Below, one piece after another: positions 10,417 to 38,749 of a stretch of 41,251 nucleotides of DNA. Position numbers and translations under genes: made by a program. The DNA lies in NCBI GenBank assembly GCA_014730295.1, contig WJIN01000069.1, positions 1 through 41,251 of the forward strand. Direction: 5' to 3'. Under the pieces are notes generated by a model. That model had not been told where the DNA came from, ran no database searches, and saw only the letters and a list, made by a program, of their open reading frames with translations. Position 1 is the stretch's first letter; each line of letters starts with the position of its first letter. Origin of the DNA: Promethearchaeota archaeon (lineage in GTDB: Archaea > Asgardarchaeota > Lokiarchaeia > Sigynarchaeales > SOKP01).

Positions 10417-10971
10417 CTAAAACATATCTACATAATTATCTATTGATATGCGGGCGTTTCCCGCTTCTTTTTGTTGCTTTATTTCCTCATCAACCGCTCC
10501 CAACGCAATAATTGCAATAGGTTCGTATATTGATGAGGTAAGTTTAAAGATTCGTAAGATCTCTTCAGTTTGATCTTTCAGATTTGTTATCAGCGCGGTG
10601 CCTAATTCATCAACTGAATGAGCGAATAACAACATATTCTGAATAAATGCGCCAATAGAAAGTAAATCTCCATCTCTATCGGCATTCTCGTTGATTTTGC
10701 GAAAAATAACCAAGTCCGCATTTGCATCGGAAATAATGCTGCCAGTATCAAAATCCATTGTCTCCGCAATCATTTGCTTCACAGTTGGGTGAACTACTAT
10801 GTTTACTTTCCATGGTTCATATCCTTCCTCTGGTAATGGCGCCCAGCTTCCGCATTCTATAATATTTCGAAGTGTTTGGTCGGATATTTTGCGATAGGCA
10901 AAATTGGTAATATCCTTTCTTGATTTTATGAATTCAAATATCGAATTCTTTCCAACCGATTGAATTTCCAT
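10417..10971 (-). CDS. Nitroreductase-fold protein, divergent copy
   Basis: A protein of about 184 residues of the nitroreductase (FMN) superfamily. The N-terminal SRKDITNFAYRKISDQTLRNIIECGSWAP corresponds to the family's SRRSVRxF ... ILECGRWAPS region, and IAIIALGAVDEE matches the C-terminal strand. The FMN-phosphate motif SRRSVR is altered to SRKDIT, and the S-x-x-N-x-Q-P-W motif is reduced to PEEGYEPWKV. Cofactor binding or substrate may therefore differ from the canonical copy just upstream on the same strand. The frame can start at a TTG at 10995; I chose the ATG at 10971, behind a TTATAAAT stretch. Tandem duplication with divergence is the simplest explanation. Confidence 0.8.
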   Translation of the reverse strand: MEIQSVGKNSIFEFIKSRKDITNFAYRKISDQTLRNIIECGSWAPLPEEGYEPWKVNIVVHPTVKQMIAETMDFDTGSIISDANADLVIFRKINENADRDGDLLSIGAFIQNMLLFAHSVDELGTALITNLKDQTEEILRIFKLTSSIYEPIAIIALGAVDEEIKQQKEAGNARISIDNYVDMF

Positions 10972-11077
10972 ATTTATAAATAGGATTGTAAGCAAATTTA
11001 AATCTTATGATAATGTCAAATAATCTGTTATAAAATTACCAGAAAAAAGAAATTATGTAAAATTATTAAGAATTACC

Positions 11078-11611
11078 TTAGAACCACTCGCAAAAGTCTT
11101 CAATCGGTCTTCTCTCTCGCTGGCCCGCTTTTTTGGCATGCATTTTTTCATCTATAGCGCCTAATGCGATAACACCCATCAGTTCAAATTTATCTGGATC
11201 CAATTTGAAAATTTTCGTCACTTCTTCTTTTTTATTCAAAATCTCTCCGATCCATACTGCTCCAATCTTCAATGCATGCGCACCGAGCAAAAGATTTTCC
11301 ATAAAGGCCCCCATTGCCTGTATATCCTTGACTCGATGGTATCCTTTTTCTAAATCCAGAAAAACAACAATGCAGTAGTACGCACTCTCAATTATTCCAC
11401 TATATTTTGTAGCATCCGCAAGCATTTTCTTCACTGTGGGATGCTTAGCAACACAAACAAACCATGGTTGGTTATTTAACCCAGAAGGTGCCCATCGTCC
11501 ACATTCAAGGATCTTTTTCACAGTTTCTTCTTTAATATCTTCAAATATAAAATTTCTCACACTTCGGCGTGATTTAATAAACTCTAAAAATTGTTCACGA
11601 TTAGTTTCCAT
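11078..11611 (-). CDS. Nitroreductase-family FMN oxidoreductase
   Basis: A 177-residue protein, typical of short nitroreductases. Visible motifs are SRRSVRNF (residues about 14-21, FMN phosphate contact), ILECGRWAPSGLNNQPW (about 34-50, flavin and substrate edge), GAFMENLLLGAHALKIGAVWIGE (about 101-123) and GVIALGAIDE near the end. Members use FMN and NAD(P)H to reduce nitro groups, quinones or flavins; the specific substrate is not deducible. It lies about 100 bases upstream of a divergent paralogue on the same strand and may be co-transcribed with it. Confidence 0.9.
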   Translation of the reverse strand: METNREQFLEFIKSRRSVRNFIFEDIKEETVKKILECGRWAPSGLNNQPWFVCVAKHPTVKKMLADATKYSGIIESAYYCIVVFLDLEKGYHRVKDIQAMGAFMENLLLGAHALKIGAVWIGEILNKKEEVTKIFKLDPDKFELMGVIALGAIDEKMHAKKAGQRERRPIEDFCEWF

Positions 11612-13480: not shown

Positions 13481-13996
13481 TTAATCAAGATCTTCTGCAT
13501 CGTCTTCCATTAAGTCGTAATATTCAATATCCATAAGTCCGCCTTGTCTATCTTCTTTCCAATGGGCTTTAATCGGCATTTTTATGTAGGTATCCTTCAC
13601 ATCCACCCCTGGTTCTAATTCTGCGATGCTACATGTATCGGTACCATCATGATGAACCAAAACCATTGGCTTTTCTTGCACTTTTCCTTCTTCATCCTTC
13701 AGATAAGCAATCGCATATGTTGCAACAGTGGCGGTATCTCTGATATCAACCCATCTGTCCGGTTTCACTAAACATTCCCCACAAACGAACCGTGGAGGAT
13801 AAAATACACGATTACATCCAGAACATTGATTTGCTACGAGTTTTTTCTCTTTTAATTTCTCTAAGAAGGGTTTGAAATGTGTGATATTGAATTTGTAATT
13901 ATAGCTGGATAAATACCAGCTTGCAGGCATTGTTCGTGTTCTTTCATACTTCTTTTTTACATAGTCCAAAGATTTTCTTTGAGTTTGTTTTGACAT
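13481..13996 (-). CDS. DUF35 OB-fold protein with rubredoxin-like zinc ribbon (second copy)
   Basis: A protein of about 171 residues. The zinc ribbon is CSGCNRVFYPPRFVCGEC (about residues 58-75), followed by an OB-fold typical of DUF35. These proteins are partners of thiolase-fold enzymes, where they form a CoA-binding or channelling subunit. It is the last of four tightly packed genes (DUF35, thiolase-like, thiolase-like, DUF35), 14 bases after the second thiolase-like gene. I chose the ATG at 13996 because GAGGTGA lies just upstream; the longer GTG start at 14005 would overlap that site. An acidic tail (DLMEDDAEDLD) follows the OB-fold. Confidence 0.85.
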   Translation of the reverse strand: MSKQTQRKSLDYVKKKYERTRTMPASWYLSSYNYKFNITHFKPFLEKLKEKKLVANQCSGCNRVFYPPRFVCGECLVKPDRWVDIRDTATVATYAIAYLKDEEGKVQEKPMVLVHHDGTDTCSIAELEPGVDVKDTYIKMPIKAHWKEDRQGGLMDIEYYDLMEDDAEDLD

Positions 13997-14010
13997 ATAT
14001 TTCACCTCAT

Positions 14011-15258
14011 TTAAGTAAATTTTCGTTTAGGTTCATCCGACATAACCATAAAGGTACAGAGATTCAGGCTTCCGCCCCACCCGTGTCCTATTGCAGTGTG
14101 AACGGTTTTTGGAACTTGGTTGCTGGCCTTTCCCATTATTTGAAGTGCGGCTTCTGCCGGTCGTTCCATAGCAGAGGCAGCGATTGCATTCGTAGAGTTA
14201 ACACCGCCGGAGCAGTTGACGGGAAGTTCCCCATCTGGTGCTGTGATTCCCGTCTCATACATTTCGGGTGCGGTAGTTTCTTCAAACAATCCTAATTTTT
14301 CCACCCACATTAATTCCTGGTTAGGAAACGGAGAATACACTTCCGCATAATCAATTTCTTTTCTCGGAAATGAGATTCCAGCTTGGCTATATCCTAATTC
14401 TGCAGATTTCATCGCACCCAATTGAGCTGAAGGATCGATTTGCGCTGATCCACTCCCATCATATCCTAATACGGCTGTTTCATTCGCAACACTTGCAACG
14501 CCATTCACATATACGGGAACGTCACAAATTTCTTTGGCTTTTTCTTCGGTTGTAAATAACATGGCGCAAGCCCCATCAGACGCAGGACAGACCATCCCAT
14601 ATCGCAATGGATATTGAACATATGGAGTATCTAACACTTCATCGATTGTCAAATCGGGCATTTTAAGGTGAGCCCACCATGTTTTTGCGGCATTTCTTCT
14701 ATTTTGAACGACAACTCGAGCTAAATCCTCTTCCGTGATTCTGCTTTTATTCATATATGTCGTCGCCTGATATGCCGCTACTCCAATTGCAGCTCCTGCA
14801 GATAATAGTCTATTTAATTGATCATAAGGAATACCAAGACTATTAAGTACTGAAATTTCCCCATAGGCAACACTCGCTAGTCCTACACTCGTGTCTCCTT
14901 GTGATTGTTGTTCAAAAGCGATTGCTAAAACTGTGTCAATCCCTGGTAATCCTGCAGTCACAGTGTAATATCCTGAGATTGCAACGGATCCTCCAGTAGT
15001 TCCTCCTGTAGTGACTCGCATTAGCGGTTTATCTCGTGCGCCCATCCAATCAGTCATCCATAGTTCTGGGATATTGGAACCTTCGAAGGCAGGCATATTA
15101 CCATTTACGTATGCATCTATATCATCTAATTCAAGACTTGGCACCTTTTTCAAACAATCTTCTATAGCCTCGTGGACTAATTCCGGCATGCTCACATCAG
15201 AACGCTTAGATGCATGTTCTGAAAATCCCGCTGAAGCTATTGCTACTTGTCTTCCCAT
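14011..15258 (-). CDS. SCP2-thiolase-like protein without catalytic cysteine (subunit 2)
   Basis: A 415-residue thiolase-fold protein of the SCP2/archaeal type. The start at 15258 is set by a strong GGAGGGAGGTG site; the longer frame would only add 16 unlikely residues. Thiolase landmarks are recognisable but altered. The nucleophile segment (normally a Cys-Ala/Ser-Ser/Gly-G word) reads VTTGGTTGGSVA, with no cysteine. The usual E-x-HDAF motif reads AEVYSPFPNQEL, with Tyr for His. The late glycine region reads AIGHGWGGSLN, retaining a histidine. The NxSGG word is present (PVNCSGG). Claisen thiolysis is therefore unlikely. Cysteine-less SCP2-type proteins paired with DUF35 are known as retro-aldolases in steroid side-chain degradation, and that chemistry or a structural role is possible. 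Confidence 0.82.
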   Translation of the reverse strand: MGRQVAIASAGFSEHASKRSDVSMPELVHEAIEDCLKKVPSLELDDIDAYVNGNMPAFEGSNIPELWMTDWMGARDKPLMRVTTGGTTGGSVAISGYYTVTAGLPGIDTVLAIAFEQQSQGDTSVGLASVAYGEISVLNSLGIPYDQLNRLLSAGAAIGVAAYQATTYMNKSRITEEDLARVVVQNRRNAAKTWWAHLKMPDLTIDEVLDTPYVQYPLRYGMVCPASDGACAMLFTTEEKAKEICDVPVYVNGVASVANETAVLGYDGSGSAQIDPSAQLGAMKSAELGYSQAGISFPRKEIDYAEVYSPFPNQELMWVEKLGLFEETTAPEMYETGITAPDGELPVNCSGGVNSTNAIAASAMERPAEAALQIMGKASNQVPKTVHTAIGHGWGGSLNLCTFMVMSDEPKRKFT

Positions 15259-15262
15259 TTTT

Positions 15263-16405
15263 TTATACACCTCCCTCCAATACATATACAATATTATTTT
15301 GCGCACACATTCCTATTTGTCCAGATGCTACCGCTCGTTCGGCGCCATCTACTTGATAGGATCCCGCTTCTCCTCTTAATTGTTTCACTGCTTCTATAAC
15401 TCGAATTAGTCCAGCTGCACAAGGTGGATTACCTCCCAATGCTCCCCCAGAGGGATTGATCGGGAGATCGCCAGTAATGGTAGTGTTTAATTCTGGTCCT
15501 TTCCCTTTTTCTGCTAAACCTAATGATTCGGCAAGGATCAATTCTTCATGAGCACAAGTTTCATGTAGTTCCGCAACATTTATTTGATTCGCTGGATCTT
15601 TGATTCCTGCCATATCATAGGCCATTTTCCCAGCAGTTTTCATTGATTTACTGGTATAGAGATCTCTTTCTCCTATATAATATGTTTCTTGATTATAACC
15701 TACACCCGCTATCCATACTGGTTTATCTGTAATTTTTAGTGCTTGACGTTCTGGGGCTAATAATAATGCTGCAACCCCATCACATGGTTCTCCAACCATT
15801 AATTCTGTCACTGGATCTGAATAGATCTCCGATTCCAATATTTGGTTTACCGTAATATCAGGATTTTGTGCCTCTTCTAAGGCTAATGGATTTTTTGCGG
15901 CATTTTGGTGATTCTTTACCGCAGTTTGTGCGATATCTTCGGATTCTATACCATATTCATTCATATAAGCTCTCATTTGGAAACCGCTTGCTGTGATATC
16001 ATTCACATAGGTATTTGGCCGTTCCCAGGTAGGATCGGTCTCATATAACCGTGCGGTATGATAAGGATAGCAAGAAGGCATACTTCCGCCCCAAACCACT
16101 GCAAGTTTATGATTTCCGGATAAAATTCGCATTAATCCATATAACATTGCATGCGCTCCGTCCATCTCTACCTTACTCTCATCGACAAGGTATCCTCCAC
16201 CTACTTCGACTGTAAAACAATTTGAAATTGTTCTCCCGTCATAATAATCATTAGTAGCAGAGATTACCGTGGTGATGTCCTTCTTCTTAAGACCCGCGTT
16301 ATCAATAGCGCCTCTGACTGCCTCGAAAATCATCTCATAACGTCCATAATTCGCATCTTTAAATAACTTAGTATAATAATATCCAACTATTCCTACTTTT
16401 TCCAT
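15263..16405 (-). CDS. SCP2-thiolase-like protein without catalytic cysteine (subunit 1)
   Basis: A 380-residue thiolase-fold protein, start ATG behind GAGGTGAT. At the nucleophile position the sequence is KVEMDGAHAM: Asp82 occupies the place of the usual Cys. His281 of the E-x-H motif is kept (AELHETCAHEEL). The PINPSGGALGGNPPCAAG segment keeps NPSGG but replaces the usual GHPxGAxG histidine by Asn. It is paralogous to the next gene, with only 4 bases between them. The two presumably form a heteromer together with the DUF35 proteins on either side. The substrate is presumably an acyl-CoA, since the fold and partners bind CoA. No HMG-CoA synthase gene lies nearby. Confidence 0.84.
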   Translation of the reverse strand: MEKVGIVGYYYTKLFKDANYGRYEMIFEAVRGAIDNAGLKKKDITTVISATNDYYDGRTISNCFTVEVGGGYLVDESKVEMDGAHAMLYGLMRILSGNHKLAVVWGGSMPSCYPYHTARLYETDPTWERPNTYVNDITASGFQMRAYMNEYGIESEDIAQTAVKNHQNAAKNPLALEEAQNPDITVNQILESEIYSDPVTELMVGEPCDGVAALLLAPERQALKITDKPVWIAGVGYNQETYYIGERDLYTSKSMKTAGKMAYDMAGIKDPANQINVAELHETCAHEELILAESLGLAEKGKGPELNTTITGDLPINPSGGALGGNPPCAAGLIRVIEAVKQLRGEAGSYQVDGAERAVASGQIGMCAQNNIVYVLEGGV

Positions 16406-16420
16406 CTTTTTAATATCACC

Positions 16421-16879
16421 TCACGCTTTAATGAAGCCTTCTATGTCAGAAGGGGCTCCTTTTGGTTGTTCTGTCCATTTAATTTTCACTTTCATTCCTA
16501 TTTCAATCTCCTCGGGGGCTATGTCGAGAGGATATATAATAGCAGTATTACTTCCATCGATATTCACCATCCCTATCAACTGGAAACTCTTGGATTTACG
16601 TGTTCTTCTGTCGCTCACCTTATATTGAGTCTTTGTATAGTTCATAAGTGTTCCTTGATCGGTTAATTCAACCCAGTTTTGGTCTAAGGATATTTTAATC
16701 TTACATTTCCCACAGACTTTTCGGGGAGGGACAAATACATCACCGCATTCAGGGCATTTATTGGCAACAATCTTCTTTTGCTCTAAGCCGTCATAGAATT
16801 TATCCATGTAAAGCCCTACCCAAAAATTAAAATCTGCTTTGACTAATCCCCGGGTTTTTTCTATAATTTTTTCGCTCAT
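16421..16879 (-). CDS. DUF35 OB-fold protein with zinc ribbon (first copy)
   Basis: A 152-residue protein that opens the four-gene operon. The zinc ribbon is CPECGDVFVPPRKVCGKC at about residues 41-58, followed by the OB-fold (LMNYTKTQYKVSDRR, then GMVNIDGSNTAIIYPLD). The N-terminal helix (FNFWVGLYMDKFYDGLEQKK) is the usual DUF35 partner-docking helix. The stop lies 15 bases before the ribosome-binding region of the first thiolase-like gene. Two DUF35 proteins for two thiolase-like subunits suggests a four-component complex. It has no Shine-Dalgarno, unlike the internal genes of the operon. Confidence 0.88.
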   Translation of the reverse strand: MSEKIIEKTRGLVKADFNFWVGLYMDKFYDGLEQKKIVANKCPECGDVFVPPRKVCGKCKIKISLDQNWVELTDQGTLMNYTKTQYKVSDRRTRKSKSFQLIGMVNIDGSNTAIIYPLDIAPEEIEIGMKVKIKWTEQPKGAPSDIEGFIKA

Positions 16880-17134: not shown

Positions 17135-17593
17135 TTGCTTATTCGGGAATTTGGGATAATAATCGAAGGTGTTCCTATAATCTGTATTAATTATCATAAA
17201 ACAGGAGAACGAGAGGTTGATTTTGCGTGTAAAGGAGCTGTGATTTCCAGCATCATGAAATTTGCGGAAAATGTAATTGAACCAGTTGAGTCATTTGAAA
17301 GTAATAAGTATCACATATTATTTAAGAGGGATAAGATAAGGACAAAAAGTAATAAAAAAGCCCAAATGATTATTTATACAGTTTTAGATAAGAAAGAAGA
17401 TTTTTCAAAGAAGCTAAAAAATAAAATTATAGGTAAAATGGATAGCATTATACATGAATTTATGAGGCAATATAGTGGATATGATTATTCTGAAACATCC
17501 CAATTTGAAGAATTTGTAAAAGTAATAGACCACCACATTGGTTCATCTACTAAAACGCTTGACGATAAGGTCTCCTCTATCTTCCTTGACTAA
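17135..17593 (+). CDS. Longin/roadblock-like small protein, copy 1
   Basis: A 152-residue alpha/beta protein starting at TTG behind AAAAGGGG. The beginning (REFGIIIEGVPIICINYHK, a beta hairpin) followed by AVISSIMKFAEN (helix) and KYHILFK (strand) is the order of the longin/profilin-like fold used by AP-complex small subunits, SRX and many Asgard GTPase-associated proteins. A C-terminal helical segment holds FEEFVKVIDHHIG. Assignment to longin is by pattern only; a roadblock relative is possible. It is probably a cytoplasmic adaptor working with the membrane protein and acetyltransferase of the same set. The start agrees with copy 2, which begins MLLREFG. Confidence 0.72.
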   Translation: MLIREFGIIIEGVPIICINYHKTGEREVDFACKGAVISSIMKFAENVIEPVESFESNKYHILFKRDKIRTKSNKKAQMIIYTVLDKKEDFSKKLKNKIIGKMDSIIHEFMRQYSGYDYSETSQFEEFVKVIDHHIGSSTKTLDDKVSSIFLD

Positions 17594-17697
17594 AATTCAT
17601 TTTAACTCTAAAATAAATATATCAATTTAGAATTTATTCTTTTTATTAATCTTGTTCAAAGTAGAATTTTAGGAATAAATAGACTTCAATAGGAGAA

Positions 17698-18801
17698 TTA
17701 ACTTAACTGTTTTAATACGTGTTTAAGTATAGGCTCATTCATTTCGGTACAAGAGATATTCTCTTTGAGTGAATTTTTTGATTTTTCATGGAGATACTTA
17801 ACAAAGATCACCGAATCTACCAATACATCAGAATATCGAGGTTTAAAACCCCCGAGATTATATCCGCAAACGATAAATCCATTATCTAATACTTGTTGCA
17901 TTGATTTGACACCTTTTAGGGTTGCTGGAATATGCCAAATTAACATTCGATAATTTTTGAACTTATCCATCAAGAATTCTACGACTTTATAATCAGTCAC
18001 TCCCAAAAGTTTTACTCTTGAACCATAAAGATCAATAGACACTGAAATATCCTCTTTTTCTAAATATTCGGGCGTTTGCTTGAATTTTGTGTAGTAAACT
18101 GTATCTCTTTTCATTATATTTTTTGTCATTCTCTTGATATGTTTCATATAATCATAGAAGAAAATAATCAGCTCATTATCTAACAAATAGACTTCATTTG
18201 ACCTATTTTTAGAAAGACGCGGCAGAGGTGAAAAATAAAGATATGCACTTTCCTCATCCTGAGTAGGATATGGATTATAATAATCGCTATTCAGATCTCT
18301 TTTATCTCCAAAATTATTATAAAAGGGAATAAATCCATAAGGTATTCCCCTAGAATTTTCAGATAATTTTTGTGCTGTCACTTGTACTCCTCTTACATCA
18401 GAGTCGATTTTAATCCGATTATCTAAAACTCCAGAGTCATGAAGTTCTTTTACACTCCTGAAACCAAATCGAGACCCTAAACCCTTACCTCTGTAGCTTT
18501 TTCTTATGATGGTTTTGCTAGAAAATGCATAATTTTCTTTCAATTCCATCAAACTTGTCGCGATTAATTCCTCTTTTTGTAAATTCTCTCCGATGATCCA
18601 TATATTGTCCTCATCTGCGATATGTCCCTCTAATTCATGTTGATCGTAGATAATGGGGTTTACATAATTAGACCCGTATTCTTGTATATAAAGTTCAGAG
18701 ATTCTGTCAGCGTCTTCAGGTATCGCGTATCTCAAGCCATATTTCTCTTTAGTATCTGGCTCATACAAATAAAAATATTCTAAACTTTCTTGTTTCTGCA
18801 T
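17698..18801 (-). CDS. GNAT acetyltransferase with second GNAT-like domain, copy 1
   Basis: A 367-residue protein. Residues about 22-160 form a GNAT acetyltransferase domain with the acetyl-CoA pyrophosphate loop YRGKGLGSRFG (103-113; R-x-x-G-x-G) after strand 4. Residues about 250-340 (DLYGSRVKLLGVTDYKVV ... RMLIWHIPATLKGVKSMQQVLDNGFIVCGYN) look like a second, degenerate GNAT-like or dimerisation half without the loop. Nearly the same protein is encoded in copy 2. The substrate is unknown; protein or small-molecule amine acetylation is the family norm. The ATG has a GGGAGGA site. It follows the 7-TM gene by 78 bases and converges on the longin-like gene. Confidence 0.82.
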   Translation of the reverse strand: MQKQESLEYFYLYEPDTKEKYGLRYAIPEDADRISELYIQEYGSNYVNPIIYDQHELEGHIADEDNIWIIGENLQKEELIATSLMELKENYAFSSKTIIRKSYRGKGLGSRFGFRSVKELHDSGVLDNRIKIDSDVRGVQVTAQKLSENSRGIPYGFIPFYNNFGDKRDLNSDYYNPYPTQDEESAYLYFSPLPRLSKNRSNEVYLLDNELIIFFYDYMKHIKRMTKNIMKRDTVYYTKFKQTPEYLEKEDISVSIDLYGSRVKLLGVTDYKVVEFLMDKFKNYRMLIWHIPATLKGVKSMQQVLDNGFIVCGYNLGGFKPRYSDVLVDSVIFVKYLHEKSKNSLKENISCTEMNEPILKHVLKQLS

Positions 18802-18879
18802 AGAATCCTCCCTAATTTCCTAATTATTTACTATAATTCATATTTCCGGTGGAAAAAAATTATAAATTAAAATTTAAAT

Positions 18880-19602
18880 TTACTTTGTTGTTTGTTTTCT
18901 AAGACCATAATAAATCAAAATAACCCATAGGATCATTGAAATTGACAGTATGCTCGTTATCGTTCGAAATATTGGTACATCTAAGAGATTGGAAAAAAAA
19001 ATCACTACCAACAATGGACTTAAACCAAAAATTCCCAAAAGAAAATATAAATATCGCCTTCTTATTTTTTCTCCTTCTAATTGGTTATATATCTTATAAG
19101 AAGTGTTTAAGATTGGGACGAGAGCAATTCCCACCACAGATAAAAGTATGAATAGAAAGTAGTAAATGCTCCATTTAGGATACCCTGAACTGCTCATAGT
19201 GACACCCTCAAAAAACTGAATAAGAACTGTTCCTGCGATTAAGATTCCTCCGTATAACGCAAAATATCGTAAAATATCCTTTTTTGCAAAGACCATCGCA
19301 GATTTGAGAATAATTTGGTTTACCACGAAAAGGAAAGCTAATCCAAAGAAATTGAAGAAATTTGTAATCAAATGCATTATTACAACCACGAATTCTAAAG
19401 AAGTCCCTCCATAGGCGTAGATTAGGACATATATTATATTTATAATATTTCCGATTGTTAAAGAAAAGAAAAACATGCTAAAATAAAGATTTAGCTTCGT
19501 CTTTTTTCTTTTCCTAATGTTTGTTCCTATATAACCAAATGTCAAAATCAATATGGTTTGGACGAAAAAGGTTAAAACGATTCTCTCAAAACCGATTGCC
19601 AT
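18880..19602 (-). CDS. Seven-TM protein, copy 1
   Basis: A 240-residue membrane protein with seven predicted helices (about 8-27, 39-62, 68-97, 110-132, 142-165, 184-205, 210-233). Loops are short; the second contact is positive (NIRKRKKTKLN), placing it inside. A conserved polar patch SSSGYPKWS precedes TM5. No catalytic domain follows. It resembles sensory 7-TM modules (7TMR or MASE type) but could equally be a small transporter. It is the first gene of a unit with the GNAT gene, with AAAGGTG before the ATG. Two further paralogues lie in this window. A 10-base direct repeat AGTTTTAAAT (19635 and 19654) sits just upstream. Confidence 0.8.
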   Translation of the reverse strand: MAIGFERIVLTFFVQTILILTFGYIGTNIRKRKKTKLNLYFSMFFFSLTIGNIINIIYVLIYAYGGTSLEFVVVIMHLITNFFNFFGLAFLFVVNQIILKSAMVFAKKDILRYFALYGGILIAGTVLIQFFEGVTMSSSGYPKWSIYYFLFILLSVVGIALVPILNTSYKIYNQLEGEKIRRRYLYFLLGIFGLSPLLVVIFFSNLLDVPIFRTITSILSISMILWVILIYYGLRKQTTK

Positions 19603-20169
19603 TCATTACACCTTTTTAATTAAGTCATAGTTAAAGTTTTAAATCTCAATTAGAGTTTTAAATTCTAAGATTTTCACTTTTAATATATTATGAAAGTTTT
19701 AGTATATATAGTTTATTTTTAATAAAAATGTTCTTTGCCGATATACATAATACCATATTTTGCCATTACTAGATATATCTAAAAACTAAAAATCCAATAC
19801 AATAATCAAATTTCAAGCTATTAGTCTGATTAACCAACACATTAAATAATATATACTTCATTTTTAGATTTTGTATATTATCTATTTTGTATCCAAGTAT
19901 TCCTAACTTTCCTCTCTTATGTATATTGATTGATAATTCTCATAAAAGGTTATAATATCAGTACGATTCCAATTTGTTATTTAACAAAAAGAATAATAAA
20001 TGTAAATGAAAAAGATAGTTATTCTTCATATAATAGAGATTCATTCAAACTTTTCTATTCGAGTAAGTCAATCAAATAGTAAGTTGAAAATTGAACAGAA
20101 AATGTTAAATAAGAAATGTGTTTCTAGTAATAGGTAAATCAAGATTATTATGTGGAGGGGATAAACGGT
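19603..20169. other. Divergent intergenic region between the two sets
   Basis: About 560 very AT-rich bases. A 43-codon plus-strand frame (20006-20137) has no ribosome site and no relative, so I do not call it. The 20155-20163 GGAGGGGAT is the ribosome site of the next gene. No tRNA, hairpin terminator or repeat shared with the other set was seen. Confidence 0.35.
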
Positions 20170-20625
20170 ATGTTACTCAGAGAATTTGGGATAATTGTTG
20201 AGGGAATACCTATTATATGTATCAATTATCGCAAAACAGGTGATAAGACTGTTGATTTTATCTGTAAAAGCGCGGTCATTTCGAGTATTATGAAATTTGC
20301 TGAAAATCTAATAGAACCAATAGAATCTTTTGAAAGCAATAAATACCATATCTTCTTTAAGAAAAGTGAAATTAATACCAAGAGAACCGCAGGTGCTCAA
20401 ATAATTTCATATGGTGTATTAGATAGAAATATAAGCCTTACTCAAAAGCAAAAGAATATCTTCATAAATAAGTTGGAGGAAATATTAAGTAAATTTATTT
20501 CAGAATATAGCGGATTAGAATATTCTGATCCCTCAAAATTTAAAGCGTTCGTGAGAATCATTGATAAAATCATTGGCTCTACGACAAAAACAACGGAAGA
20601 GAAAGTTTCAAATCTGTTTTTCTAA
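20170..20625 (+). CDS. Longin/roadblock-like small protein, copy 2
   Basis: A 151-residue paralogue of the 17135 gene, with the same REFGII-x-EG-x-PIICINY hairpin and the FAEN-x-IEP-x-ESFESNKYHI segment. The first half is very conserved; the C-terminal half has drifted but keeps YSG-x-x-YS and IGS-x-TKT. I start it at the ATG at 20170 behind GGAGGGG; a GTG six codons earlier is in frame but lies inside the ribosome-site region and is not matched by copy 1. It converges on its GNAT partner, whose stop is about 20 bases away. An adaptor role is inferred. Confidence 0.74.
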   Translation: MLLREFGIIVEGIPIICINYRKTGDKTVDFICKSAVISSIMKFAENLIEPIESFESNKYHIFFKKSEINTKRTAGAQIISYGVLDRNISLTQKQKNIFINKLEEILSKFISEYSGLEYSDPSKFKAFVRIIDKIIGSTTKTTEEKVSNLFF

Positions 20626-20644
20626 TTTTAGAGAGAGAAAAATA

Positions 20645-21739
20645 TTACATTTGGGTTAGTACATGCTCATAAAATGGTTTGTTTTTACTAGTCAAATTGA
20701 TATCACCAAGTGTATTCTTTGATATATCATTTAGATATTTCACAAAAATTAAGGAATCTATAAGACCTTCAGAATAGCGCGGTTTAAAACTTCCTACATT
20801 ATAACCACATACAATAAATCCCTCTTCTAAGGCTTGTTGCATAGATTTCACTCCTTTTTGAGTTGTAGGAATATGCCAAATTAGCATTCTATAGTTTTTG
20901 AATTTATTGAGTAAAAAGTTTACGACGCTAATATCTGAAACTCCAATAAGTTTAATTTTGGAACCATACATATCTATAGAGACAGAAATGTCGTTATGTT
21001 CAACATACCCAGGAGTTGTATTTTTTTTTAGTAGGGTAATATCATCCTTTTTCATCATAACCTTAATTATTCGCTTTGTATCCTTCATAAGATCATATAA
21101 CGGGGATATCAATTCATCGTCCAATAGAAAGACTTCATTAATTCTATTTTCTATAAGCTTTGCCAAAGGCACAAAATAAAGGAATGCAGATTCCTCATTT
21201 TGTACGGGATAAGGTGTATAATAATCTGTGTTTAATTTCCTCTTATCTCCAAAATTATTATAAAACGGGATAAACCCATATGGTATCCCTCCCGCTCTTT
21301 CCGTTAATTTTTGAGCTTCAATTTGAACAGCTCTTACATCAGAGTCGACTTTAATCCTATCATCAAATATGTGCGATTCGTTAAGATGTTTCACACTCAT
21401 GAAGCCGAATTTAGAACCTAATCCTAAACCACGATAATCCTTATCTATTATAGTTTTACTAGAGAAAGCATAATTCTCTTTTAGTTCCATCAGACTTGTT
21501 GCAAATATCTCTTGGTTTTTTAGATTTTCCCCTACAATCCAAATATTATTTTTTTCAGAAATAATTTCTTGCAATTCGCTTGTATCATACATTTTTGGAT
21601 TTATGTAATTATAATCATATTCTTGCACATAAAGTCTAGATATTTTCTCAGCATCTTCAGGAATCGCATATCTAAGACCATATTTTTCGTTTTCTCTTTC
21701 ATAGATATAAAAGTATCGCACACTTTCTTGTTTCTGCAT
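20645..21739 (-). CDS. GNAT acetyltransferase with second GNAT-like domain, copy 2
   Basis: A 364-residue paralogue of the 17698 gene. The acetyl-CoA loop is DYRGLGLGSKFGF, the K of copy 1 replaced by L but R-x-x-G-x-G kept. The strictly conserved NNFGDKR and IPYGFIPFYNN segments between domains, and the C-terminal SIDMYGSKIKLIGVSD and MLIWHIPTTQKGVKSMQQ segments, show that both halves are under selection. The ATG has an AGGGGTAA-type site. It lies 63 bases after the 7-TM gene. The conserved acetyl-CoA loop argues that both copies are active enzymes. Confidence 0.82.
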   Translation of the reverse strand: MQKQESVRYFYIYERENEKYGLRYAIPEDAEKISRLYVQEYDYNYINPKMYDTSELQEIISEKNNIWIVGENLKNQEIFATSLMELKENYAFSSKTIIDKDYRGLGLGSKFGFMSVKHLNESHIFDDRIKVDSDVRAVQIEAQKLTERAGGIPYGFIPFYNNFGDKRKLNTDYYTPYPVQNEESAFLYFVPLAKLIENRINEVFLLDDELISPLYDLMKDTKRIIKVMMKKDDITLLKKNTTPGYVEHNDISVSIDMYGSKIKLIGVSDISVVNFLLNKFKNYRMLIWHIPTTQKGVKSMQQALEEGFIVCGYNVGSFKPRYSEGLIDSLIFVKYLNDISKNTLGDINLTSKNKPFYEHVLTQM

Positions 21740-21802
21740 ACATTTTACCCCTATTTTCCTTTTTAAGTGAATATTTTGAAATTAAAAAAAATTAGAAATT
21801 AT

Positions 21803-22516
21803 TTATTTTGTTCTCCTTCTTAGTCCATAATAGATTAAAAGAACCCAAAGAATCATTGAAACAGATACAAAGCTGACTATCGTTCGCATATTTGCTATAT
21901 TTAGGTAATTAGATATGAATATTGTAATTAGTAAAGGTATTAAACCGAGGATTCCAGCAAAAAATGAAAGATAGCGCCGTTTAATCTCTTTTCCTTCTAG
22001 CTGCTGATATATTCGGAATGAACTGATAATAATTGGGATTAATGCAATGATAATTGTTATACTCAGAATGAATATGAAGTAATATATGCTCCAAACAGGA
22101 TATCCTGAAGAACTCATTGAGACACCATCAAATAACTGTATAATTATGGAACCTACAATTAGGATCACCCCATATCCAATTAGATAACGCATTATATCTT
22201 TTTTAGAAAAAACCATTGCTGATTTCAATATAATTTGATTTACCACATAGAGAAAACCTAAACCAAAAAAATTGAAAAAATTCGTAATGAGATGTAAAAT
22301 AACTACAATATCACCTAGCCCACTATACGCAAATATCAGTACATATATAATGTTAATTACGTTTCCAACAGTTAGAAAGATAAAAAAAAGAGCAAAGTAC
22401 TTGTTAAGTTGATTCTTTTTTCTCCTTAAAATGCTCTGTGCGATATATCCAAATACTAACGATAATATTGCTTGTACAACAAAAGTTAAAATAACTCTAT
22501 CAGTGGTGATATACAT
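21803..22516 (-). CDS. Seven-TM protein, copy 2
   Basis: A 237-residue seven-helix membrane protein paralogous to the 18880 gene. Shared stretches include VINIIYVLIFAYSG at TM2, HLITNFFNFFG and VNQIILKSAMVFSKKDI at TM3 and its following loop, and SSSGYPVWSIYYF before TM5. The internal loop after TM1 is again basic (ILRRKKNQLN). The strongest conservation is in TM3 and its following loop, a likely ligand or partner site. The ATG follows GAGGATGA. It is the first gene of a unit with the GNAT gene. Role unknown; sensory or scaffold function is a guess. Confidence 0.8.
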   Translation of the reverse strand: MYITTDRVILTFVVQAILSLVFGYIAQSILRRKKNQLNKYFALFFIFLTVGNVINIIYVLIFAYSGLGDIVVILHLITNFFNFFGLGFLYVVNQIILKSAMVFSKKDIMRYLIGYGVILIVGSIIIQLFDGVSMSSSGYPVWSIYYFIFILSITIIIALIPIIISSFRIYQQLEGKEIKRRYLSFFAGILGLIPLLITIFISNYLNIANMRTIVSFVSVSMILWVLLIYYGLRRRTK

Positions 22517-24260: not shown

Positions 24261-24611
24261 ATGGTTAGCATATTTGGAAAAAAAGATGAAGATGAACTGG
24301 CAGAATCGCCTAAAGAAACCTTAGGGTTCACAAAGGATTTTAGTTCGGTGATCCAAGACTTCCTTATTAAGAAATATGATTTCTCGAATTTAGACCAAAT
24401 AGATGATATCAAAAAGCAATTGATGAATAGACGCGTGTTAATAATAAATGCGAATAAAATTTTAGAGAACGGAAAAGTTCCGGTATTAGAACTCAAACGT
24501 GCGATTGATGAGTTAAAACAATTTTTGAGGGAGAATGGAGGCTCTTTAGGACGTATAGGAGATAAATATCTAATTTTAACCCCAAATTCTCACATCCGAA
24601 TAGCTAATTAG
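24261..24611 (+). CDS. sepF: SepF cell-division protein
   Basis: A 116-residue protein matching archaeal SepF. A short N-terminal hydrophobic/basic peptide (MVSIFGKK) would be the membrane-binding helix. An acidic linker follows. The SepF core is at about residues 30-112: NLDQIDDIKKQLMNRRVLIINANKI, ELKRAIDELKQFLRENGGSLGRIGDKYLILTP, with the family's GG-x-x-x-RIGD-x-x-LILTP ending. SepF anchors FtsZ to the membrane in archaea that use FtsZ. The ATG at 24261 has GAGGTGG; an ATG nine bases earlier is followed directly by a stop. It is followed at 138 bases on the same strand by a 7-TM gene of the duplicated family. No ftsZ lies in the window. Confidence 0.85.
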   Translation: MVSIFGKKDEDELAESPKETLGFTKDFSSVIQDFLIKKYDFSNLDQIDDIKKQLMNRRVLIINANKILENGKVPVLELKRAIDELKQFLRENGGSLGRIGDKYLILTPNSHIRIAN

Positions 24612-24748
24612 ATGAACATACTTTTCTATTCGTAATTTTCACCCTGAATCTTTTTTCAAATTATTTTTCTCTTTTTACAAATTTTTAAAAATTAAATATT
24701 ATTTTTACATTTTAAAATGATATTTGCTGGATAATTAGGTGAATCACA

Positions 24749-25462
24749 ACGAACTTACCTATTGAACGAATCTTATTTATCTTTATTGGGGAATCCATTA
24801 TAATATTTGGTTTTATATTTCTTCTAAATAAAATTCGTAAGAGAAGCTCGACAAAATTAAAAAAATATCTCATGGGTTTTTTTATATTCACGCTAATAGG
24901 GTTAGTTATAAATATTGTTCATAGTATTGCTTTTTTATTCGTTCAAAACAAAGAAATAATAATAATAATGCATCTAATGGCAAGTTTTTTCACCTATTAT
25001 GCCTTCAGATTCTTAATTGCTATGAATGTCTTTCTAATTCAACCGAATTTTATAGATATGAAATCTAAAAAATGGTTATTTTTCTTGTTATATGGCGTTA
25101 TATTAGCAACTGGATTGATTATAGGGTATTTCACTGATGCAATTGATATTTCAATTTATGGATATCCTGTATGGAATCTCTGGTTTTTTCTTTTTATCAT
25201 AATAATAGTAGGGGGATGTGCAATAGTACCTATATTGGTATTATCATATAAGGTATTTTCAATGATGAAATATAAAATATTAAAAAGGCGTTATTTTTTG
25301 TTTTATGTTGGGATTTTTTGCTTTTCCCCTCTCCTATTTTTGATCTTTTTTTCGAATTATCTTGACATCTATTTCTTGAGATTAATAACAAGCGTCTATT
25401 CTCTCCTAACACCATTCTGGTTATATCTTATTTATTATGGAATTGCGAAGAATCTGGATTAA
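24749..25462 (+). CDS. Seven-TM protein, copy 3, apparent ACG start
   Basis: The third 7-TM paralogue. An ATG at 24872 would give only 196 residues and lose TM1. The frame stays open upstream to a TGA at 24740, and the codons from 24749 (ACG-AAC-TTA-CCT-ATT-GAA-CGA-ATC) encode a clear TM1 that aligns without gaps to the other copies: xNLPIERI against MAIGFERI and MYITTDRV. No ATG, GTG or TTG exists in that stretch. AGGTGA lies exactly six bases before the ACG. Started there, the protein has 237 residues, the same as copy 2. Either ACG initiates, or an ATG mutated to ACG (or a sequence error). It has no GNAT or longin partner here, and instead follows sepF. The SGYP word before TM5 becomes IYGYPVWN. 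Confidence 0.68.
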   Translation, partial: TNLPIERILFIFIGESIIIFGFIFLLNKIRKRSSTKLKKYLMGFFIFTLIGLVINIVHSIAFLFVQNKEIIIIMHLMASFFTYYAFRFLIAMNVFLIQPNFIDMKSKKWLFFLLYGVILATGLIIGYFTDAIDISIYGYPVWNLWFFLFIIIIVGGCAIVPILVLSYKVFSMMKYKILKRRYFLFYVGIFCFSPLLFLIFFSNYLDIYFLRLITSVYSLLTPFWLYLIYYGIAKNLD

Positions 25463-28992: not shown

Positions 28993-29364
28993 ATGGAAGC
29001 CATCATTATCGATAGATTAAACGAAGAACTCCGGAAATTAGAGTTTACCGGAGGGATAATTGGAACGGCGGTAGTGAGGAAAAATGGGCTACTTATCACT
29101 TCACGATTACCACGAGATATTGATGAAAGAAAATTCGGCGCGATGGCTGCAACGATTCACGGTGCGTTTGAGACTGCACTTACACATATCGAAGGAGAGT
29201 ACATAAATCATATAACAATCGAACTAGAAGGGTATGAATTAATTGTAATGGGATTAGATAAATTAATCTTGATCTCATTATTAGAGAAAAACAAAAACTT
29301 AGCGATTGCTCTCATTGAGATGGAGCAAACGCTTAATAAATTTAAAACCATAATAAATAATTGA
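28993..29364 (+). CDS. Roadblock/LC7-domain protein
   Basis: A 123-residue single-domain protein of the roadblock/LC7 superfamily: an N-terminal helix, then GIIGTAVVRKNGLLITSRLP (beta hairpin), ERKFGAMAATIHGAFETALTHI (long helix) and strands HITIELEGYELIVMGLDKLILISLL, then a final helix. In Asgard archaea these are abundant and thought to act as platforms or regulators of small Ras-like GTPases (as in MglB or Ragulator). It overlaps or abuts the following E1-like gene, so the two are co-expressed; a direct functional link is inferred only. The ATG has an AAAGGTA site. Confidence 0.9.
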   Translation: MEAIIIDRLNEELRKLEFTGGIIGTAVVRKNGLLITSRLPRDIDERKFGAMAATIHGAFETALTHIEGEYINHITIELEGYELIVMGLDKLILISLLEKNKNLAIALIEMEQTLNKFKTIINN

Positions 29365-29369
29365 AGATC

Positions 29370-30110
29370 ATGTTGAATCAAAAAGAATTTGAAAGATATT
29401 CTAGACAGATACTTTCAGAATCAATAGGAGAAGAAGGTCAACAAAAATTATCTAAAATAAAAATACTTCAAATCGGAACTGGAGGATTAGGATCTCCCTG
29501 TGCGCTATATTTGACGGCTGCAGGAATCGGAGAATTAAGAATTATTGATAGTGATACTGTTTCTATTTCAAATCTACAACGACAAATTCTGTATAGTGAA
29601 GCAGATGTCGGAAGGGAGAAGGTGGAGGTGGCAAAAGAACGCTTATCGTCATTAAACTCATCAGTGAATATAAAAGCCTATAAAGATTACGTGGATGATG
29701 AATCAATAAAAAAATACATCCATGATATTGATTTTCTTATAGATTGTAGCGATAATATGAAAACAAAATTCCTTGTAAACAGAACAGGAATTCAAAATAA
29801 TATTCGCACTGTTATTGCGGGGATAAAAGACTTTTATGGTCAAATCCTCACAATCAATCCGAAAGAAAGTGCGTGTTATCAATGTGTCTTTTCAGAGCCT
29901 GAAGACGAAGAGGAATCAGAAAGTCCTCTCCCAGTGATTGGAGTAACTGCGGGGATTTTGGGTACATTAGAAGCATTAGAAGTAATTAAAACTGTACTTG
30001 GCCTTCCAAATTTGGAGAATCAGCTCCTAATGGTAAATCTGCTTAGTATGACGTTCAATAAAATTAAAGTATTAAAGGATGAGAATTGTTTTTGCTATTG
30101 CAGTGAATGA
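29370..30110 (+). CDS. E1/MoeB/ThiF-type adenylating enzyme without crossover cysteine
   Basis: A 246-residue activating enzyme of the ThiF/MoeB/UBA family. It starts with ERYSRQI, followed by the nucleotide loop GTGGLGSP (36-43), acidic Asp60/Asp62, NLQRQILY with arginine 71, and DCSDNMKTKFLVN (125-137). The zinc site is C169-x2-C172 plus an unusual C-x-C-x-C end (240, 242, 244) instead of CxxC. The crossover loop, where UBA4, ThiF and MoeB carry a cysteine, reads FSEPEDEEESESPLP and has none. It can probably adenylate the C-terminal glycine of a ubiquitin-like or MoaD/ThiS-like protein, but thioester formation is doubtful. I start it at the ATG at 29370; a TTG at 29361 overlaps the roadblock stop. 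Confidence 0.9.
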   Translation: MLNQKEFERYSRQILSESIGEEGQQKLSKIKILQIGTGGLGSPCALYLTAAGIGELRIIDSDTVSISNLQRQILYSEADVGREKVEVAKERLSSLNSSVNIKAYKDYVDDESIKKYIHDIDFLIDCSDNMKTKFLVNRTGIQNNIRTVIAGIKDFYGQILTINPKESACYQCVFSEPEDEEESESPLPVIGVTAGILGTLEALEVIKTVLGLPNLENQLLMVNLLSMTFNKIKVLKDENCFCYCSE

Positions 30111-36709: not shown

Positions 36710-38749
36710 ATGTCAGATAATAATGAATTTAATATTCCAGAAAACAAACAAGAAGCGAAACAACGCATACAAGATTTAAGAGAAGAAATTAGATATCATG
36801 ATAAAAAATATTTTGTTGAAAATCAACCCGTAATTAGCGACGCGGAATACGATGACCTTGTGAGAGAATTAGAAGCCTTGGAGGAGGCATATCCAGAATT
36901 TATTACAGAAGATTCACCCTCCCAACGCGTTGGAGCCGGGGAGATTGACGAATTTCAAACGGTTGAGCATAAATCAGTAATGTTAAGCTTAGATAAAGCC
37001 TTTAATTATGAAGAATTAAAAGATTTCGACGACAGAGTGAAAAGAAATTGGAAACAAACCGAGGTTGAGTACGTAGTTGAGACAAAAATAGATGGATTAG
37101 GGGTTGCTCTATTATATGAAGATAAATCATTAAAAAGGGGGGCTACTCGAGGGGATGGTGCCAGGGGGGATGATATTACTCCTAATATTCGTACAATCCA
37201 TGCGATACCTTTAAAACTCTCTGAAGAATCTATTCTAAGCAACGCAGAATTCCGAGGAGAGGTTTATATGCCTCGAGAAGCTTTTGAAGAGATGAATGCG
37301 AAGCGATTAAAAAAGGGAAAAGAACCGTTTGCTAATCCAAGAAATGCTGCTGCGGGGACGGTTCGAACAAAGGATCCCAAGGTTGTAGCAAAACGACCAT
37401 TAAATATTTTCATTTATTCGATGAGTTATTATGAAGAAGGAGATTTTTCAACTCATGAGGAAACTATAGAGGAAATGAAAAAAGCGGGATTAAGAATAAA
37501 TAAATACGTGGTAAAGAGAGGAATTGATGATGTTTATAAGTATCTACAAGAATTTGAAGAGCAAAAAGATGCTTTAAATTATGAAATCGATGGAATGGTT
37601 ATTAAAGTTAATGATCTGGAAGCACATAAAATACTTGGACATACTACTCATCACCCAAGATGGGCAATTGCGTATAAATATCCTCCTACGAGAAAAACGA
37701 CGGAAATCAAGGACATACGTATCTCTGTGGGAAGAACTGGGAAATTGACCCCAATTGCGATTTTGAATCCTATCGAATTATCAGGGACGACGGTCGGAAG
37801 AGCATCACTCCATAACGAAGATGAAATCGAAAGAAAAGATATCCGCATCGGGGATGTTGCACTAATCCAAAAGGCAGGTGAGATTATCCCCCAAGTGGTA
37901 AAGGTAATAAAGAATAAACGAGATGGAAGTGAAGAAAGGTTTCAAATGCCCCATACATGCCCGGTTTGTGGCAGCAAAGCAAAACGTTTTGGTGATGAAG
38001 TTGCACGCCGATGTGTGAATGCTCAATGCCCCGCTCAAGTAAAGCAAAGGATTGAGCATTGGGGTGAGAGAGGTGCAATGAATATCAAAGGATTAGGCCC
38101 AAAACTTTTAGATCGGCTTGTAGATAATGGAGTAGTGAAAAATATTGCTGAGATATATAAATTGAGCGAGGATGATTTAGCAGATATAGAACGGATGGGT
38201 CATAAATCGGCTCAGAATCTATTAGAAGAAATCGAAAATAGTAAAAGTATGGGATTAAGTAAAGTATTATATGGTCTAGGGATTACATATGTAGGTGATC
38301 ATGTCGCCAGAGTGCTAACTAAAAAATATAATTCTATTGATGATTTAAAGGATGCGAATAAAAAAGAATTAGAAGAAGTAGAAGAAATTGGGCCCAAAAT
38401 AGCTGAAAGTGTAGTTTCTTTTTTTGAGGAAGAAAAAAATAGAGATCTCATAGAAGAATTAAGATCTAATGGAGTAAAAATGGTAACAGAAAAGGAAAAG
38501 AAACGCCAATTTTTAAAAGGAAAAAAATTCGTATTCACTGGAGCGCTGGAGACATATACACGGGCAGAAGCATCCGAAAAAGTACGTGAAGTAGGAGGAA
38601 GGGTTACTTCAAGTGTAAGCGGAGAAACAGATTATCTCGTTGTTGGAGAGGATCCTGGATCTAAACTAGCAAAAGCAAAACGGGAAGGAACACAAATATT
38701 GGATGAAGAACAATTTTTAAATATGTTAAAAACCCATAAATTACCTTGA
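36710..38749 (+). CDS. ligA: NAD-dependent DNA ligase LigA
   Basis: A 679-residue full-length bacterial-type ligase. Domain Ia is at about 10-75 (HDKKYFVENQPVISDAEYDDL with the NAD-binding Tyr/Asp residues). The nucleotidyltransferase core has the KxDG motif TKIDG with Lys126. An OB-fold follows (SVGRTGKLTPIAIL). The zinc finger is CPVCGSK ... CVNAQC. The helix-hairpin-helix domain is at about 470-580, and the BRCT domain ends the protein (FVFTGALETYTRAEA to DYLVVGEDPGSK). It seals nicks using NAD+ and is expected to come by transfer from bacteria, since archaea normally use ATP ligases. The ribosome site is GGGAGGAGA. The KxDG residues and zinc ligands are intact, so it should be active. Confidence 0.97.
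   Translation: MSDNNEFNIPENKQEAKQRIQDLREEIRYHDKKYFVENQPVISDAEYDDLVRELEALEEAYPEFITEDSPSQRVGAGEIDEFQTVEHKSVMLSLDKAFNYEELKDFDDRVKRNWKQTEVEYVVETKIDGLGVALLYEDKSLKRGATRGDGARGDDITPNIRTIHAIPLKLSEESILSNAEFRGEVYMPREAFEEMNAKRLKKGKEPFANPRNAAAGTVRTKDPKVVAKRPLNIFIYSMSYYEEGDFSTHEETIEEMKKAGLRINKYVVKRGIDDVYKYLQEFEEQKDALNYEIDGMVIKVNDLEAHKILGHTTHHPRWAIAYKYPPTRKTTEIKDIRISVGRTGKLTPIAILNPIELSGTTVGRASLHNEDEIERKDIRIGDVALIQKAGEIIPQVVKVIKNKRDGSEERFQMPHTCPVCGSKAKRFGDEVARRCVNAQCPAQVKQRIEHWGERGAMNIKGLGPKLLDRLVDNGVVKNIAEIYKLSEDDLADIERMGHKSAQNLLEEIENSKSMGLSKVLYGLGITYVGDHVARVLTKKYNSIDDLKDANKKELEEVEEIGPKIAESVVSFFEEEKNRDLIEELRSNGVKMVTEKEKKRQFLKGKKFVFTGALETYTRAEASEKVREVGGRVTSSVSGETDYLVVGEDPGSKLAKAKREGTQILDEEQFLNMLKTHKLP

Follow-up and report, generated by a model that had tools for sequence, protein, structure and literature searches.

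A tandemly duplicated gene set coding for a longin-fold protein, a GNAT-like protein and a seven-helix membrane protein in Asgard archaea

In Asgard archaea, longins, Ras-like GTPases and roadblocks count among the eukaryotic signature proteins. The known systems nearest to the one reported here include the TRAPP subunits Trs23/Bet5 (TRAPPC4/TRAPPC1), which form the core of a Rab guanine nucleotide exchange factor, and the roadblock/longin GTPase platforms of the MglB/Ragulator (LAMTOR)/Mon1-Ccz1 type. LAMTOR1 is lipidated. The system studied here lies at positions 17135-22516 of a 41,251-nucleotide stretch of a Promethearchaeota archaeon (contig WJIN01000069.1), the whole of which is referred to as the window. 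It comprises two tandem blocks, each with genes for a small longin-like protein (LON), a GNAT-like protein and a seven-transmembrane (7TM) protein. The module longin is structurally nearest to the TRAPP subunits. However, it is only 11% identical to Trs23/Bet5, and the module contains neither a TRAPPC3-like partner nor a GTPase; its longin is tied to a 7TM protein and a GNAT instead. An adjacent MglA-type partner is also missing, and the anchor of the module would be the separate 7TM protein, not LAMTOR1. The Lokiarchaeota longin domain 8YQG originates from a Roadblock-Longin protein, unlike the module longin.

According to passages of PMC10933270 and PMC4917890, Loki holds 41 longin domains, and the latter source asks, among its outstanding questions, if the targets of the Loki GTPases will emerge from an analysis of operons. 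The main text of PMC10933270 contains neither "transmembrane" nor "acetyl". In the literature searched, which included few bioRxiv preprints or subscription papers, no description of the three-gene set was found. The parts taken singly have known folds or belong to known types, and the combination is new relative to the literature found. A conserved set in which a longin is linked to both a defined membrane protein and a defined enzyme provides named partners for study.

The gene order and orientation were identical in block 1 (17135-19602) and block 2 (20152-22516). In block 1, LON-A occupies 17135-17593 of the forward strand (152 aa, TTG start; recognised by its identity to LON-B) and is followed on the reverse strand by GNAT-A (17698-18801, 367 aa) and 7TM-A (18880-19602, 240 aa). 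The corresponding genes of block 2 are LON-B (20170-20625, forward, 151 aa), GNAT-B (20645-21739, reverse, 364 aa) and 7TM-B (21803-22516, reverse, 237 aa). The ATG at 20170 is the more likely start of LON-B than the alternative GTG at 20152, because the relatives of LON-B begin there. The identities between the longins, GNATs and 7TM proteins of the two blocks were 60% across 151 aa, 66% across 366 aa and 64% across 238 aa, respectively. The LON/GNAT gap is 104 bp in the first block and 19 bp in the second, and the GNAT/7TM gap 78 and 63 bp, respectively. The original observation of two tandem blocks, homologous gene for gene and with non-conserved spacers, was borne out by these values. The 7TM and GNAT genes of each block lie on one strand and therefore probably form a single operon, and each longin gene is convergent with the GNAT gene of its own block. 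7TM-A and LON-B diverge across the 549-bp intergenic region between the 7TM-A/GNAT-A pair and LON-B (19603-20151), a candidate shared control region that could carry the promoters of both.

The contig search with the GNAT yielded a single locus, with a 92% identical match to GNAT-B, in SHMW01000037.1 of Candidatus Lokiarchaeota BC3 (G001; genomes and loci are cited below by G and L numbers, respectively). The genes flanking the module on one side are collinear with the window, and G001 has the same tandem order up to the contig end, which truncates it before longin A. The gene pairs of the window and G001 were 91-96% identical, and the ratios of nonsynonymous to synonymous substitution rates (dN/dS) of the five module pairs were 0.07-0.14 (0.09-0.14 for the GNATs); LON-A of G001 falls beyond the contig end. 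The shared tandem order, the high identities and the low dN/dS values indicate that the duplication is older than the split of the window genome and G001 and that both copies have been maintained. A protein nearly identical to longin A, P0005, originates from a metagenome.

The small protein adopts a longin fold in the AlphaFold2 (AF2) model. The topology determined by DSSP was b-b-a-b-b-b-a-a at a predicted local distance difference test (pLDDT) score of 81, and the model resembles solved longins over most of the domain; besides the TRAPP subunits, the longins of Sec22b and Vamp7 also matched. In the Foldseek search, the chains of MglB/Ragulator/Mon1-Ccz1-type platforms were at the top of the list, with TM-scores of 0.4-0.6 across the list and a single match with E below 0.001. 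The longin-like nature of this protein, as originally proposed, is therefore upheld by the predicted topology and by structural matches to solved longins. At the sequence level, no useful Pfam match was obtained; the Pfam Longin profile matched 1 of 37 longin-family members (E 0.039). The single-sequence search of the PDB found no longin, and in the profile search of the PDB the Loki longin 8yqg was tied first at E 0.22. Neither a SNARE motif nor a membrane anchor was detected in the longin protein of 151 aa, which stops after the longin helices.

Seven segments were predicted by plain hydropathy in both 7TM-A and 7TM-B. The positive-inside count resulted in 16 v 2 and 18 v 2 K/R residues in the odd loops, respectively, which predicts an N-out/C-in topology with K/R-rich cytoplasmic loops and tail. 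Among 29 aligned family members, seven segments were predicted for 11, each of which has this charge bias too, and 4 to 6 for the other 18, several of which miss the N-terminus in the gene call. Searches of Pfam, PDB and NCBIfam gave no significant match to a family. The weak matches were those to DctQ (1 of 29 members, E 0.0033) and of 7TM-B to the putative transporter MAB_1171c (E 0.68). The proteins are too short for any output domain beyond the seven helices, which agrees with the earlier claim of a 7TM protein lacking such a domain. The seven helices and the N-out/C-in topology resemble those of G-protein-coupled receptors (GPCRs) and of the 7TM sensor domains of bacterial kinases, whereas the module protein has no significant receptor match in Pfam or PDB and no output domain. 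A microbial rhodopsin was considered and rejected, as the Schiff-base lysine is absent and predicted helix 7 of 7TM-A and 7TM-B contains no K.

The N-terminal half of the GNAT protein is GNAT-like at the family level, as judged by profile matches, and contains the acetyl-CoA loop, the motif of which we take to be Q/R-x-x-G-x-G/A. The loop reads YRGKGLG in GNAT-A and YRGLGLG in GNAT-B (RGKGLG and RGLGLG in the motif region, respectively). Across the 28-member family the central Gly was present in 28/28 and Q/R in 26/28, and the last position was G or A in 13/28, so that the chemistry of the loop may differ in lineages other than that of the window. With E values of up to 1 allowed, the Pfam profile Acetyltransf_1 was found in 13 of the 28 members, the best value being 1e-5. 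GNAT-B matched Acetyltransf_10 below the cut-off (E 0.017), GNAT-A by itself matched no GNAT profile in Pfam, and NCBIfam gave no match for the window GNATs. With the family profile, the PDB matches fell within profile residues 26-182, the best being 3g8w_A (E 2e-4, residues 26-159); 3ddd_A, presumably a tandem GNAT, matched at residues 22-148 (E 0.003). The likeness to two-domain GNATs such as 3ddd is confined to the N-terminal part; in contrast to 3ddd, the C-terminal half of the module protein is unrecognisable as a GNAT. That half is conserved in the family alignment. Its profile yielded 0 matches in the PDB, the comparison of the two halves by hhalign aligned short end regions only at a probability below 1%, and the AF2 model from 7 sequences had a pLDDT of 36. 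Of the proposed dual GNAT, the N-terminal domain stood, and a second GNAT domain in the C-terminal half is possible and was unconfirmed by these three analyses.

The whole-genome searches covered 227 genomes of the Asgard phylum. A 5-row GNAT profile matched 33 of them, and 26 places in 20 genomes were full-length at 160 bits or more. The same 26 places scored at least 433 bits with a 28-row profile; the next match had 62 bits, and because of this fall the family appears sharply bounded. At E up to 0.01 and with paralogues counted, the longin profile matched 87/227 genomes; the 7TM profile matched 68/227 at E up to 0.001. Viral contigs contained no relative of the module GNAT. Wider searches gave no named holder of the module genes outside Asgard, the whole-genome comparison being one within the phylum.

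All 26 full-length GNAT places were fetched for the neighbourhood analysis. A 7TM gene stood upstream of the GNAT on the same strand within 400 bp in 17 places, and a longin gene was tail-to-tail with the GNAT at 5-107 bp in 13. In G111 the longin was 2.1 kb away, and the second copy of G001 met the contig end. Neither partner was found at nine places (two in G086, two in G087, one in G101, one each in G141 and G154, two in G155). Thirteen loci of one lineage (L054-L063, L067, L068, L070) have their flanking genes in common, with a syntenic 19-kb context, and were therefore counted as one context; the window and G001 form the second context with all three genes. In the clustering of open reading frames from the fetched flanks, only the 7TM, LON and GNAT clusters were common to both contexts, between which the module genes are 33-41% identical. 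By rough arithmetic, the chance that a longin and a 7TM gene came to adjoin the GNAT in both contexts by accident is remote, since a genome has thousands of genes and only a handful of them code for longins or 7TM proteins. The 7TM-GNAT combination is a recurrent pair, and 7TM-longin recurs too, twice without a module-type GNAT. Of the two outcomes that would have spoken against the original interpretation, a lack of this neighbourhood in other genomes and a small protein of another fold, neither was observed. One locus, in G125 (L059 6754-10983), has two tandem 7TM-GNAT pairs and one longin, with GNATs from different tree subgroups.

In the GNAT tree, the two module lineages grouped against the rest (support 96/93). 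The 7TM tree was built from 66 fetched proteins of at least 185 aa, a part of those in the phylum. It contained a 100/99 clade of 23 proteins, of which 19 are GNAT-adjacent and 2 are longin-adjacent with no module-type GNAT (G102, G103); the clade also includes a third 7TM protein of the window and that of G001. One long and unsure row (L064) joined the clade in a later quick tree of 79 proteins. In the longin tree of 16 rows (7 in neither group), the window longins grouped with the SepF-adjacent longins of G102, G103, G154 and G155 (98/94), and the module longins of the other lineage were separate (100/100). This grouping fits either a trio assembled twice or an old trio with losses of parts. 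Other members of the 7TM family (L093-L101, L103, L106, L107, L112) occur mostly as tandem pairs at a common locus with a helix-hairpin-helix protein (d3) and mostly also a protein of about 200 aa (d5). The candidacy of d5 as a degenerate GTPase was dropped: hhalign to Ras gave 0.6% probability and Pfam nothing significant with the 4 of 13 members tried.

A further 7TM-GNAT association was found among 20 loci with weaker matches to the 28-row GNAT profile, nine chosen for a nearby 7TM and eleven regardless. In 12 of the 20 (L133-L143 and L151; the set also includes L150), 1-2 genes separate a 7TM gene from a gene on the same strand for a GNAT of 405-427 aa with profile E values of 1e-17 to 1e-11; these were 9/9 and 3/11 of the two choices, respectively. 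Of the remainder, one locus had the two genes adjacent and divergent, and seven had no 7TM, four of those being on short contigs. The genes in between vary: a further GNAT was confirmed by Acetyltransf_1 above the cut-off in 4/4 tested, and a ThiF-family protein in 2/2 tested, ThiF-like genes being present at several of the loci. Thirteen 7TM proteins of this set formed their own group (SH-aLRT 97) apart from the module clade. The 7TM-GNAT pairing exists accordingly in two 7TM clades with different GNATs, which makes the GNAT a recurrent partner, not an add-on; the notion of the GNAT as an addition to a 7TM-longin core was dropped after this set appeared. For the same reason, the earlier suggestion that the GNAT may be the output is favoured.

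Ras-like genes were observed on the longin side of some modules. In G116, G118, G120 and G125, the next genes on this side code for a pair of 7TM proteins (372-388 aa) that carry an additional domain at the C-terminus, and a Ras-like GTPase gene comes after them; in G102 and G103 the longin abuts such a fused pair, and no Ras gene was seen. The extra domain may be longin-like, although hhalign against the longin gave probabilities of 11-25% with the joint profile and, with the two subgroups taken singly, of 11-14% and about 1%, and the single PDB profile match was Trs23 at E 0.55. With partial matches counted, the fused family was found in 160/227 genomes at E up to 0.001. Of 20 loci picked where good matches stood side by side, 8 have a Ras-like gene as the immediate neighbour and 10 have one no more than two genes away. 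Against a background of 10 Ras-like genes in 760, the binomial probability was 2e-8, and 1e-5 to 2e-5 if 3% is assumed; these figures are optimistic because the loci are partly related. The fused family with adjacent Ras-like genes offers concrete candidate longin/GTPase pairs. Its members occur Asgard-wide and, in the loci picked, in pairs or more (L057, L059, L067, L068, L113-L116, L119, L128-L130). At L088 and L090-L092, where Ras-like genes are also close by, a paralogous longin stands beside genes read by eye as arginyl-tRNA synthetase (ArgRS), agmatinase/arginase and deoxyhypusine synthase.

The reading we prefer, with a probability of roughly 0.38, is that the module codes for a membrane-anchored acetyltransferase with a longin adaptor. 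The 7TM protein would be the hub in the cell membrane, which senses an outside cue or merely anchors, and would hold or control the GNAT encoded in the same operon. A longin dimer would bind its cytoplasmic face and link the complex either to a membrane site or to a Ras/Rab-like GTPase whose gene lies elsewhere, a role modelled on the longin platforms in TRAPP and Mon1-Ccz1. As the output, the GNAT would acetylate an amine, which may be a small molecule or a lysine residue in the longin or in the GTPase. The folds and the gene association were observed directly or in models, and we infer from them the protein binding, the acetylation target, the GTPase link and the sensing. The original interpretation is partly supported, with the longin, the seven helices and the conserved neighbourhood on its side and the second GNAT domain unconfirmed. 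Several results weigh against the membrane-anchored acetyltransferase: the longin gene is convergent and outside the 7TM-GNAT operon; no 7TM is directly upstream of the GNAT at 9/26 places; G102 and G103 retain a clade-mate 7TM beside a longin with no module-type GNAT; and the last loop position is G or A in fewer than half of the GNATs. No longin was present in the stretch fetched at the second-set loci, so it is not a general partner. On the GTPase side, the module of the window contains no GTPase gene, 9/13 fetched loci of the other lineage have none in the stretch fetched, the fused domain bears only a weak likeness to longins, and, according to a passage of PMC10933270, the GTPase genes of MK-D1 are generally not in operons with longin genes.

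The prominence of the 7TM-GNAT pair, the most recurrent pairing, would also be explained if the substrate of the GNAT were a small amine or peptide that the 7TM protein senses or carries into or out of the cell, the longin being a regulator or a historical neighbour. The further GNAT and the E1-like adenylating ThiF enzyme of the second set point in this direction, as such an arrangement is seen in peptide- or cofactor-modifying gene sets, and so do the weak DctQ and MAB_1171c matches. However, no transporter match was above the cut-off, and the 7TM-longin neighbourhood in G102 and G103 does without the module-type GNAT; we regard this metabolic or signalling-molecule pair as unlikely, yet worth keeping in view. 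The same two genomes favour a membrane-tethered longin platform, in which a 7TM-longin core acts on a Ras/Rab-like GTPase and the GNAT merely tunes it. The TRAPP-like fold, the Ras-like neighbours of the fused family and the fused pairs with Ras-like genes flanking four modules agree with it, whereas the partners of the second 7TM clade are GNATs, with no longin in the stretch fetched, and the fused domain is weakly longin-like, which leaves such a platform rather doubtful. An inherited neighbourhood without common function would account for most three-gene places being in one lineage with a syntenic context, and for there being two contexts only. It is improbable, since all other fetched neighbours changed between these contexts, whose module genes are 33-41% identical, and since GNATs accompany another 7TM clade as well. 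A longin-SNARE-type trafficking device or a GNAT-toxin cassette would fit the Sec22b and Vamp7 matches and the patchy distribution (20/227 genomes), but the longin protein has no SNARE motif or anchor, none of the six genes is antitoxin-like and the GNATs have low dN/dS; there is little room for either.

Beyond the membrane-anchored acetyltransferase itself, a speculative and on balance doubtful extension is that the 7TM proteins belong to an Asgard family of GPCR-like seven-helix hubs, the clades of which have their own cytosolic partners: acetyltransferases in two clades, longins in the module and Ras/Rab-like GTPases with the fused pairs. If true, acetylation and longin platforms would be the means by which receptors act, and the control of small GTPases by receptors would have a prokaryotic forerunner here.

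The third 7TM paralogue of the window (approximately 24743-25462, forward; 39% identical to 7TM-A) lies 2.2 kb beyond the module beside a gene for a SepF-like protein (24261-24611, forward; PF04472, E 2.6e-9). It is full-length only if the start codon is not ATG, GTG or TTG: the first in-frame ATG would remove helix 1, and an in-frame TGA stands upstream of ATC/ATA-type codons. The full length is conserved in two genomes (the window and L053, about 10538-11257, reverse). The SepF-like homologue is adjoined by a longin in G102, G103, G154 and G155, with no adjacent GNAT of the module family.

Elsewhere in the window, a Roadblock/LC7 gene overlaps a ThiF/E1-like gene (28993-30110), and their homologues stand together in L053, L079 and L082. 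At 13481-16879, thiolase-like and ChsH2 zinc-ribbon genes are duplicated in mirrored order, an arrangement found also in G155 (L084). The gene at 36710-38749 codes for an NAD-dependent DNA ligase of bacterial type on this archaeal contig, with adenylation, OB, zinc, HHH and BRCT domains.

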